Positions 15,619-36,703 of a DNA stretch of 64,000 bases are shown one piece after another; position 1 is the first letter of the stretch; every line of letters starts with the position of its first letter. A model generated the notes under the pieces. It had not been told where the DNA came from. It worked only from the letters and a program-made list of their open reading frames with translations, and did no database searches. The DNA is from Candidatus Saccharimonadales bacterium (GTDB taxonomy: Bacteria; Patescibacteriota; Saccharimonadia; Saccharimonadales; Saccharimonadaceae). A program made the translations under genes and the position numbers. Location of the stretch: positions 62,001 to 126,000 of the forward strand of contig JBDSSF010000001.1 of NCBI GenBank assembly GCA_039928925.1, written 5' to 3'.

Positions 15619-15708
15619 CGTAGAAAACAAAAAAAACATAAAAAAAGACGCCTACTTGGCGCTATGCATATCGATTGAAGTTATCGACAGTTAGATAATA
15701 AATATATG

Positions 15709-16147
15709 CCTGGGGCGGGTAACTGTTTCCAGTAAACCCGCCCCAGGGGCAAATCACATACAATCTGAAGTGATCAGCTCGCCCCGAAGGGGAGGTATCT
15801 GTCACAGATGGAAGAGCAGAACTGCTCGTCCGGTGACGATCGCATCAGTTTAATACATGGGCCCGCAGTGGGTTCACCGTCCAGCGCAGCTGTTTGGCTG
15901 GCACGGCGTCCCCACTGCGGGGGCTTGTGAGCGGGTGGACGTTTGGGCCGCTGCTTCGATTTGCATCGACGCGGCCCAGACTACTGCCCGAGAATCACTG
16001 TGAACATTCCTTCACCCTTTCTCACGCGAACTAGCTGTCGCATGGGTCACAAAGTTGCTCTAGGCGTCTTTCCCTTGCGCGGGCAAAAGACGGAGAACCC
16101 TTTGGTGGGGGACTCTCTAAACCCTAGACTAAGGTCATTCGTTCTCC
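15709..16147. other. hairpin-dense GC-rich stretch, candidate large structured RNA (island B)
   Basis: About 440 nt without a convincing gene but with six successive helices: 15710-15720/15736-15746 (11 bp), CCCC/GGGG with small hairpins at about 15780-15835, 15862-15872/15911-15921 (11 bp, with an inner CCAGC/GCTGG), 15941-15951/15971-15981 (11 bp with one wobble and an inner TCGAT/ATCGA), 16066-16071/16086-16091, and 16092-16098/16141-16147 (GGAGAAC/GTTCTCC). A weak promoter may precede it near 15675-15705. I see no RNase P, tmRNA or SRP signature. The strand is not certain, though the terminator at 16392 favours plus. Confidence 0.5.
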
Positions 16148-16195
16148 ATTCGGACTACATGTGCTTGATCACCGAGTGCGACGACGGCCACTTGC

Positions 16196-16387
16196 ATGGG
16201 CGCCGTGTCCCATCTGGAGTGGCCGCCGCCGGCCGATGATCAGCTGTCGCTGGTGATCGGGTCGGAGCCGCCGGCCGGGGAGGGGTTCGAGATCTCGGAC
16301 TTGGTCTTCTTGAAGGACTCGTGGTGCGAGGTGGTGCCGTACGGAGGGGACATGGTTGGTGTACCTTTCGTTTGGCCGGAAGTGTGA
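16196..16387 (+). CDS. 63-residue high-GC3 protein (island B)
   Basis: A small ORF of 63 residues that ends 4 nt before a very strong terminator hairpin. Almost every third codon position up to about codon 50 is G or C (CTG GAG TGG CCG CCG CCG GCC), as in high-GC Actinobacteria and unlike anything around it, which argues that it is coding. The product is acidic and rich in P, E and V, with no signal peptide. No clear ribosome site precedes the ATG. An ORF starting at 16159 in another frame overlaps its 5' end with similar codon choice, so an older, longer gene broken by a frameshift is possible. Family unknown. Confidence 0.45.
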   Translation: MGAVSHLEWPPPADDQLSLVIGSEPPAGEGFEISDLVFLKDSWCEVVPYGGDMVGVPFVWPEV

Positions 16388-16391
16388 TTCA

Positions 16392-16448
16392 CTCCGGTCT
16401 GATCTATACTGAAATTATGTTCAGTCCAGATCAGACCGGAGTATTTTT
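16392..16448 (+). terminator. strong terminator of island B, first part
   Basis: A 14-bp perfect stem (16392-16405 with 16428-16441) continues into an inner ACTGAA/TTCAGT pair, followed by a T-rich run. The stem is unusually long for a terminator. Confidence 0.8.
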
Positions 16449-16530
16449 ATTACCTAACTGTCAAAGTACCGACCAGGATTGAATTGCTCCACTCAACTGA
16501 TTGATTTACACACTCTACATCATAATTATA

Positions 16531-33416: not shown

Positions 33417-34742
<1,326 letters not shown>

Positions 34743-34766: not shown

Positions 34767-34775
34767 TGTTATAAT
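34767..34775 (+). promoter_or_regulatory. extended -10 promoter of the island E transcript
   Basis: TGT-TATAAT. It overlaps the 3' arm of a CACAT...ATGTG hairpin (34745-34768), so obgE termination and this promoter share sequence. Confidence 0.55.
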
Positions 34776-34933
34776 TTTTCCAGGTTTTAGTGAGATTACT
34801 CCTAAGACATACATTAATAGACGAGAAGTATACGCACCACAGCATGGAAACGTGTTGTTTATGGCAATTTCGCTATAAACATTACCTTTCCTTGCTGTGC
34901 CGACTCACAGTAAAGGACAAAGCCGGAGGCATC

Positions 34934-35083
34934 GTGTCGTTCGGTGTGTTTGATTCACTACTCGGTCTCAAAAGGACCAAGGAAGGAAGCAACATGAGCT
35001 GCATTCAGCGAGGCGGCCGTATCGGTCGCGGTGGCAGGATCGGTCGAGGTGGCCGAGTCGGTCGCGGCGGCAGCGAAGGCTGA
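34934..35083 (+). CDS. 49-residue Gly/Arg-repeat peptide (island E)
   Basis: A short ORF starting with GTG at 34934, with GGAGG 4 nt upstream. A second in-frame start, ATG at 34994 with AAGGAAGGA upstream, would give 29 residues. The C-terminal half is three copies of a 6-residue unit GGR(I/V)GR, encoded by three 18-nt repeats (35012-35065). The N-terminal part (FGVFDSLLGLKRTKEGSN) looks like a leader. The peptide is strongly basic and could bind RNA or membranes, or be a precursor peptide. No family recognised. Confidence 0.55.
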   Translation: MSFGVFDSLLGLKRTKEGSNMSCIQRGGRIGRGGRIGRGGRVGRGGSEG

Positions 35084-35132
35084 CCAAGGGGAAACCCAGC
35101 GGTTCGCGAGAAGGACACTGCGATACACCCGG

Positions 35133-35164
35133 GGCAGGGATGACGACGCATCGTCGTCCCTGCC
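35133..35164 (+). terminator. hairpin at the end of island E
   Basis: GGCAGGGATGACGACG and CGTCGTCCCTGCC form a 13-bp stem with a short bulge and a 3-nt loop. Only a weak T-run follows, so its terminator role is probable rather than certain. Confidence 0.6.
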
Positions 35165-35253
35165 TTCGGGCTTAAATATATTACTTCTCGTCTATCATTA
35201 TACTTTCAAACGATCACCCAGAAGGGTGTTTTTTATTTTGCTAGAAAACAGTC

Positions 35254-35266: not shown

Positions 35267-36703
35267 ATGCCTAAAACATTCTTTTTTTATGACCTTGAAA
35301 CAAGTGGGCTAAGCGCCCAGAGTGACCGCATAATGCAATTTGCCGGTATACGAACGGATATGGACCTTCAGCCTATAGGTGAGCCATACAACGTCCTCGT
35401 ACGACTTAATGATGACACACTCCCAAGTCCCGAAGCTTTGATGGTGACAGGCATTACACCCCAGCAGACAGTTAGTGACGGTTATAGCGAGGCTGAGTTT
35501 GCTCGTATCCTCGTCGATGAGATATTTACACCCGATACTATCACTGTTGGATTTAATAGTATTAGATTTGATGATGAGTTTATTCGCCACCTCTTTTGGC
35601 GTACATTCCAAGATCCATATGAGTGGGCCTGGAAAGATGGCCGCTCAAGATGGGACCTTCTTGATGTTGTTCGTATCACAAGAGCGCTTCGACCTGAGGG
35701 CATCAAGTGGCCGGTTGTTGATGGTAAGGCAGTTAATAGGCTTGAACATATTACAAAAGAAAACGGTATTGTTCATGCGAAGGCACATGATGCACTCAGT
35801 GACGTTGAGGCTTTGATTGATGTGACGCGTCTTATTAAAGATAAACAGCCACAACTTTATAATTATCTTCTTGATATGCGTGATAAGAAAAAAGTGCAGC
35901 AGCTCATTAATCTTGACGATAAAAAACCATTTGTCTATACAAGTGGACGACTCGACGCGGAGCATGAAAAGACAACCGTCGCATTTCCGCTAACAAGCAG
36001 CAAGAATGGTAACGTAGTTGTTTATGATCTTCGCTATGATCCAGCGCTGTTTATAAATCTTTCGTCCGATGAGCTAGCAAAAAAACTCTATGCATCATGG
36101 GAAGAGCGAAAGTCTGAGGACTTTGTGCCTCTTCCGGTCAAAGAACTACAATATAACCGCACACCCGCAGTTGCACCGCTCGGTGTTTTGGAATCATGTG
36201 ATGGCTGGAATAAGATACATCTTACAAAAGATATAATTGAGAGTCATAAATCCGCGCTCGTATCAGCACCTCACTTTGCTGAAAATATTCGTAGCTTATT
36301 TGAAAATAGGGCAGAATTTAAAAAATCAAAGGATGCCGAGGCGCAACTCTATGATGGCTTTGTCGCAGATCGTGACAGACTGAGAATTGAAACTGTTCGA
36401 AATGCCGATGAGCGAACACTTGCAGATTTTAATCCTGAGTTTACGGATGAGAGATTACCGACACTTCTTATGCACTACAAAGCTCGTAATTATCCCCGTT
36501 CACTAAGTGAAGAGGAATCACGCGCATGGGAGCAGTGGCGAACCGAGAGAATAAAGTCCCAGCTTCCATCATTTATGAAGTCGCTTCATAAACTTGCCGC
36601 AACAGAACTTGATGACGGAAAGCAGTACGTTATGCAGGAAATGCAACTATGGCTTGAAAGCATTGCACCAACTGATACATCAGACCAAGACAGCGAAGAC
36701 TAG
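35267..36703 (+). CDS. sbcB: exodeoxyribonuclease I
   Basis: A 478-residue 3'-5' single-strand DNA exonuclease for repair and recombination. The DEDDh active site is visible: 'FYDLETSGL' (D and E), 'FNSIRFDDEFIRHLFWR' (D), and 'HDALSDVEALI' (H and D). The middle SH3-like and C-terminal helical regions match the length of E. coli ExoI (475 residues). Its stop overlaps that of the convergent small membrane protein gene. Confidence 0.94.
   Translation: MPKTFFFYDLETSGLSAQSDRIMQFAGIRTDMDLQPIGEPYNVLVRLNDDTLPSPEALMVTGITPQQTVSDGYSEAEFARILVDEIFTPDTITVGFNSIRFDDEFIRHLFWRTFQDPYEWAWKDGRSRWDLLDVVRITRALRPEGIKWPVVDGKAVNRLEHITKENGIVHAKAHDALSDVEALIDVTRLIKDKQPQLYNYLLDMRDKKKVQQLINLDDKKPFVYTSGRLDAEHEKTTVAFPLTSSKNGNVVVYDLRYDPALFINLSSDELAKKLYASWEERKSEDFVPLPVKELQYNRTPAVAPLGVLESCDGWNKIHLTKDIIESHKSALVSAPHFAENIRSLFENRAEFKKSKDAEAQLYDGFVADRDRLRIETVRNADERTLADFNPEFTDERLPTLLMHYKARNYPRSLSEEESRAWEQWRTERIKSQLPSFMKSLHKLAATELDDGKQYVMQEMQLWLESIAPTDTSDQDSED

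Follow-up and report, generated by a model that had tools for sequence, protein, structure and literature searches.

A putative class of closed-end, messenger-like RNAs for variable small proteins in Saccharibacteria

Hok-type mRNAs of type I toxin-antitoxin systems, which are subject to fold-back inhibition, are stable mRNAs for small proteins with long-range 5'-3' pairing. In the icaR mRNA of Staphylococcus aureus, the 5' untranslated region pairs with the 3' untranslated region within one mRNA (PMC3868564), and the ornate RNAs ROOL, GOLLD, and OLE are large and very structured RNAs of bacteria (PMC12286853). In the present study, we analyzed a unit of 379 nucleotides (nt) between obgE and exonuclease I (exoI) in the 0.98-Mb genome of a member of Saccharibacteria (TM7); the unit lies in a stretch of 64,000 nt, hereafter called the window. 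By computation, we found that the unit is bounded by a closing helix (P1), that this helix covaries among relatives, that members at several loci have a common leader, that the interior is exchanged, and that many members contain genuine open reading frames (ORFs). The unit probably belongs to a class of closed-end, messenger-like RNAs that is spread over several loci and would encode variable small proteins in Saccharibacteria.

The likeness to Hok-type mRNAs lies in the pairing of the 5' and 3' ends, by P1, around a small-protein ORF in what is here a predicted mRNA. Unlike in those mRNAs, it is the leader that is conserved, the cargo varies and can be exchanged, and P1 lies off the ribosome site. 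A Hok-like translation block is not indicated, because P1 leaves the Shine-Dalgarno site uncovered here, and neither the peptide of the given unit nor the other tested cargo at the exoI locus gave any Pfam or NCBIfam match, Hok/Gef-family toxins included. The pairing in icaR is one regulatory contact in one gene, whereas the units studied here make up an entire class and have in common a long, covarying end helix, additional hairpins, and the leader. Closed-end RNAs are, like ROOL, GOLLD, and OLE, large and highly structured, but they have neither an Rfam match nor a conserved interior, and they contain ORFs; the search for the class was confined to Saccharibacteria, where it was seen. The window also contains a structured RNA of the same lineage, the lysM-TM7 RNA (RF03005, 32059-32204), which is a cis-regulatory element of another gene and differs from closed-end units in sequence and size. 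A motif like the type III hammerhead ribozyme (RF00008) occurs in a few members (L212; L134), below the gathering threshold where tested, and was not seen in the given unit.

The covariance models of Rfam 15 matched nothing in the given unit, the relatives, the paralogues, or the independent members, and the opinion in a preliminary description of the locus that no known family fits therefore holds against that database. Weak matches to microRNA families were taken as chance; the genome's copies of tmRNA (RF00023, C3:320989-321396) and RNase P RNA (RF00010, C3:318838-319172) are elsewhere. Searches of the mostly open-access literature on Saccharibacteria for noncoding RNA, transcriptomes, codon use, and hammerheads found no description of the class. 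Judged against Rfam 15 and the open-access literature, the class is so far undescribed.

The perfect 14-base-pair (bp) inverted repeat, the hairpin at 34838-34899, and the strong hairpin near the 3' end are all real, and the preliminary description is accurate. The 5' arm of P1 (ATAGACGAGAAGTA, 34817-34830; all features of the unit are on the plus strand) has its exact reverse complement in the 3' arm (TACTTCTCGTCTAT, 35182-35195). The -10 element of the promoter, TATAAT (34770-34775), aligns with TATTGACA-N17-TGNTATAAT in relatives, though the -35 side is poor. P2 (34838-34899) is a long hairpin 3' of the 5' arm with counterparts at the equivalent place in many relatives, and P3 (35128-35170) is immediately inside the 3' arm, a position that matches in relatives and paralogues. 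The motif TACATTA (34810-34816) abuts P1 on the 5' side, and its CATT is near-invariant in the leader alignment. Three further features had gone unmentioned: a leader hairpin (P0, GTTTTAG/CTAAGAC, 34784-34808), with hairpins at the equivalent place in relatives; a rho-independent-type terminator (CACCC-AGAA-GGGTG-T6, 35215-35239) upstream of exoI; and the independence of the flanking genes obgE (33450-34742, plus strand) and exoI (35267-36703, plus strand), the latter having a separate promoter of its own. A role of the unit as leader-plus-attenuator of exoI is unlikely, since the terminator and the separate promoter intervene in the sequence. Compared with dinucleotide shuffles, the unit has a folding z score of -8.1. 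The earlier suggestion that the whole could be a single folded transcription unit with a closing helix is supported.

When 304 kb of the same genome were scanned, three long-range repeats of at least 14 bp were obtained, namely the given unit, another class member, and a third that is apparently a chance match outside the class. A single 14-bp long-range repeat is by itself not decisive; the significance of the putative helix comes from comparative evidence. We compared the exoI-upstream DNA of relatives by synteny with exoI, because the interiors were too diverged for BLASTN, which gave no match between the given unit and 100 relatives. Between obgE and exoI, the gap is in most cases either short (element-free) or 440-980 nt in length, and most long gaps contain a unit built like the given one. 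Units of 278-777 nt with perfect closing helices of 12-17 bp, of different sequence, are present at this place in relatives, and consensus promoters are found in relatives. We then paired the DNA immediately before exoI with that located 250-950 nt upstream and recorded the longest perfect helix that the two can form. A perfect helix of at least 12 bp was found at 20 of 95 loci when both arms came from the same genome, compared with 2 of 570 cross-genome pairings. The helix sequences vary yet stay complementary, as in ACAAGTTGGATA, AGCTAGATACGTAAAT, ACAAGGTAACGATAGT, and TAACATGTCAGAGAG. Among 41 pooled elements, which were selected for having a helix, 11.95 of 12 positions are paired (1000 permutations never exceeded 5.3), all four Watson-Crick pairs are represented at each of the 12 positions, and the mean identity of the 12-nt 5' arms between members is 29%. 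The unbiased tests are the same-genome versus cross-genome comparison above and the leader-model prediction below. Compensatory changes in the closing helix, which the preliminary description had proposed to look for in relatives, are thus strongly evident. A U-run is present within 90 nt downstream of the 3' arm in 31 of the 41 elements, and all 22 elements that were folded have z values between -6 and -20.

To identify members at other loci, we scanned 973 kb of this genome for long-range helices whose 3' arm has a strong hairpin on its inner side. The scan gave C3:180127-180820 (closing helix of 16 bp; ORF of 181 amino acid residues), C1:170873-171257 (15 bp; 97 residues), C4:48807-49680 (12 bp; 174 residues, signal-like at the N-terminus), C1:355021-355675 (13 bp; without a long ORF), and C4:106962-107410 (12 bp; a membrane-protein ORF). 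The promoter and leader upstream of the 5' arm are conserved among members, and the alignment yielded a common leader that consists of TATTGACA-N17-TGNTATAAT, a hairpin, and then GGTACATTGACAAGTTGGATA, corresponding to the last unpaired bases and the 5' arm. A sequence-only model of the leader (R1), blind to the 3' side, was run on this genome and 60 relatives. R1 gave 30 leader matches beyond the training set, 14 of which have an exact downstream complement (at least 12 nt) of the 5' arm; when the downstream sequences were swapped between leader matches, 1 of 300 pairings did so. Many partial R1 matches are probably plain promoters, because the leader model includes a promoter.

A second member in the window (15686-16462, minus strand; leader at 16548-16449) was matched by R1 and also by R2, a leader model trained without any leaders from this genome (E = 2e-4 with R2, better than the given locus). 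It consists of the helix GACAGTTAG..CTAACTGTC and the hairpin ACTCCGGTCTGATCT..AGATCAGACCGGAGT, with a terminator beyond. It is not among the 14 closing matches because its perfect helix is only 9 bp, extended via a G-U pair. Leader-like features occur at two other places in the same genome (C1). A GC-rich stretch at L130:13664-15879 (minus strand) contains two genes of 532 and 206 residues in a genome of 43% GC; a full-length leader match is present upstream, and a closing helix was not found. At L140:17851-18471, a GC-rich TerD-domain gene has a leader hairpin, GAAACAATAGTTTC, that resembles those of closed-end units.

Exchange of the interior is evident from pairs of members. L041 and L044 have the promoter, leader, P1, P2, and terminator in common, and their interiors differ. 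The second window member and C4:48807-49680 (L149) have the leader, P1, and P2 in common, and again the interiors differ; the ORF in this common frame has 37 residues in the former (MSPPYGTTSHHESFKKTKSEISNPSPAGGSDPITSDS, 16240-16353, minus strand, with a GC content at third codon positions (GC3) of 0.97) and 174 residues in the latter. Under a fixed rule (a Shine-Dalgarno-led ATG ORF of at least 25 residues), ORFs were found in 12 of 30 exoI-locus elements, compared with a mean of 2.3 (maximum 6) in shuffles and 4 in the reverse complement. GC3 is at least 0.85 in the ORFs of seven elements (0.92-1.00) and in none of the shuffles; the start of exoI at those same loci has a mean GC3 of 0.44, and for the 907 genes of the window's genome that span at least 100 codons the mean is 0.36, none reaching 0.85. 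Shine-Dalgarno-led mini-ORFs of 4-10 codons number 17, versus 1.6 in shuffles, and those ended by TAG with a hairpin directly after number 8, versus 0.07. Judged from these sequence counts, translation is a genuine feature of many members, though conservation does not extend to the peptides.

Pfam recognizes few of the cargo proteins: Clp_N, TerD (in an ORF behind a partial leader match), and DUF1523. The nearest solved structures of the Clp_N cargo are the N-domains of ClpC/ClpC1, and the DUF1523 cargo (L208) has relatives among phage secreted proteins, including those of actinophages. Signal-peptide-like and LPxTG-like proteins are also found behind such leaders. The long cargo protein of L051 has no relatives in plasmids; that of L071 has none in phages and two weak matches in Paenibacillus plasmids, and among 84,980 genomes only its own source genome matched. 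The codon usage of the predicted cargo resembles that of high-GC bacteria.

In the given unit, the candidate cargo ORF encodes 29 residues (MSCIQRGGRIGRGGRIGRGGRVGRGGSEG, 34994-35083; a 49-codon variant starts from GTG at 34934) and is preceded by the Shine-Dalgarno stretch AAGGAAGGAAG (34979-34989), in line with the family-wide excess of Shine-Dalgarno-led ORFs over shuffles. The ORF contains GGR(I/V)GR repeats, has a good Shine-Dalgarno site, and is placed like other cargo ORFs. Its GC contents at the first, second, and third codon positions are 0.75, 0.79, and 0.61; GC3 exceeds the genome mean but is lower than GC1 and GC2, and the codon-position signature is absent because the tandem repeat shapes these values. 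The Shine-Dalgarno site and the reality of ORFs in the family speak for a basic-peptide gene, but the codon signature does not; such a gene is plausible. The idea that the Gly/Arg repeat is the point of the unit is not supported; the repeat is peculiar to this genome and absent from every relative examined, and the interior is the exchanged part. The peptide has no match in Pfam, NCBIfam, or PHROGs. We regard the RGG-like ORF as probable, though putative, cargo.

These observations may be combined as follows. Every member would be transcribed from its own sigma70-type promoter, beginning with the conserved leader (a small hairpin and CATT) and the 5' arm of P1, mostly 12-17 bp. The 3' arm would be at the opposite end of the RNA, with P3 just inside and usually a terminator after it; in at least one member, a putative hammerhead-like motif is located beyond the 3' arm. 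The predicted cargo between the ends is mostly a small Shine-Dalgarno-led ORF, sometimes a TAG mini-ORF with a hairpin, and sometimes ORF-free. RNA ends that are paired or blocked in this manner resist exonucleases; P1 would pair both ends, the 3' side being further blocked by P3 and the 5' side by the leader hairpin. The outcome would be a long-lived messenger-like RNA from which small proteins are made at internal ribosome sites, and these variable proteins would probably serve in dealings with external partners such as the host bacterium. At the given locus, the cargo would be the RGG-like basic peptide, if translated.

Several points weigh against this explanation. About half of the full-length independent leader matches have no closing helix of at least 10 bp, and therefore the leader also serves unclosed genes. 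The given locus has an E value of 1.8e-7 (31.2 bits) with R1, whose training set includes it, but scores weakly (E = 0.017) with R2, from which its own genome was left out; it also has the poor -35 side and no TAG mini-ORF. Members L057, L059, L083, and L144 have no long ORF, and therefore translation cannot be the whole function. The class is known by computation from DNA, in largely fragmented assemblies, and we infer the stability, abundance, and purpose of its RNAs.

The alternative that comes closest is a structured noncoding RNA that functions through its fold, like the ornate large RNAs that form assemblies, with ORFs that are secondary or exploit the RNA. The extreme folding energy of all elements tested, the retention of the frame in members without a long ORF, and the highly structured interior of the given unit, whose ORF has no codon signature, agree with it. 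The Shine-Dalgarno ORFs of very high GC3 and the TAG mini-ORFs far exceed those in shuffles, however, entire proteins of 97-181 residues are found within the same frame, and a conserved interior fold was not found; we consider this alternative rather unlikely.

Cultured Saccharibacteria live as epibionts on Actinobacteria, and it follows that the cargo was either acquired from hosts or phages or is meant for reading in the host. In the latter case, an obligate epibiont would pass closed-end RNAs that resist nucleases and follow the host's codon style into the actinobacterial cell, where they would be translated into effectors, the cargo being replaced in an arms race. The contrast between the GC3 of the seven exoI-locus cargo ORFs and that of exoI and the genome fits such a route, as do the Shine-Dalgarno sites of the cargo (genes under 0.6 in GC3 have such a site in only 28% of cases), the apparently shielded ends, the rapid turnover of cargo, the ClpC-type N-domain, signal-peptide-like, and LPxTG-like proteins, and the established epibiosis. 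Recent gene acquisition from a host or phage, however, yields the same codon pattern, the given ORF is not strongly GC3-biased, and we know of no RNA export route in these cells; translation in the host is improbable.

A mobile element or foreign gene cassette, with P1 as a terminal inverted repeat, a 5-bp CATTA target duplication, and passenger genes, is very improbable: CATTA does flank the repeat on both sides here (34812-34816 and 35196-35200), the GC-rich cargo looks foreign and differs within the same frame, and the L208 cargo has phage relatives, but CATT belongs to the conserved leader and, in other members, is not repeated beyond the 3' arm, the promoter and terminator are outside the arms, the arms are unrelated between members while complementary within each, the place between obgE and exoI is fixed in many genera, and the unit has no transposase or recombinase. 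We rejected a transposon with a CATTA duplication on the grounds of the leader motif and the promoter and terminator beyond the arms, and an inverted-repeat transposable element (MITE) on those of the low arm identity and of CATT being part of the leader.

If the closed-end messenger explanation is true, it represents a new bacterial gene architecture, in which a conserved RNA frame closes the transcript ends around exchangeable small genes, and the class occurs in many genera within one family of Saccharibacteria as well as in some further families of its order. Application of the leader model and then the helix would provide a sequence-based route to candidate host-interaction proteins, few of which are known in these bacteria and many of which are too short or odd for gene finders. 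Two questions become directly testable: the protection of these RNAs, and the cell in which they are translated.

Some minor observations concern cargo and 3' ends. In the window's genome, 28 of the 907 genes that are 100 codons or longer reach a GC3 of 0.6, and a Shine-Dalgarno site precedes 61% of them, compared with 28% of the rest. Mini-ORFs ending in ..GFT plus TAG are present in the exoI-upstream elements L013, L041, L068, and L092 (MVRSGFT, MIHVRGFT, MHTSGFT, and MNTSGFT), and basic mini-ORFs in L092, L101, and L104 (MRRHM, MKKRHM, and MMKWRHS) are followed by TAG and then directly by a hairpin. At about 7308-7892 of L147 (C4 of the window's genome), a 194-residue protein consisting mainly of a ClpC-type N-domain lies behind a leader-model match; its role could be that of an adaptor or decoy acting on a Clp protease. 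Motifs like the type III hammerhead are located at L134:16446-16498 (C1 of the same genome, near 162.47 kb), in L212, at L142:14896, and at L172:7539. The L134 motif is downstream of a leader match and matches RF00008 with E = 2e-5 and 31.6 bits (gathering threshold, 48.5), and that of L212 directly follows the closing helix; the presence of such motifs near the 3' end at these two loci suggests some importance for the form of that end.
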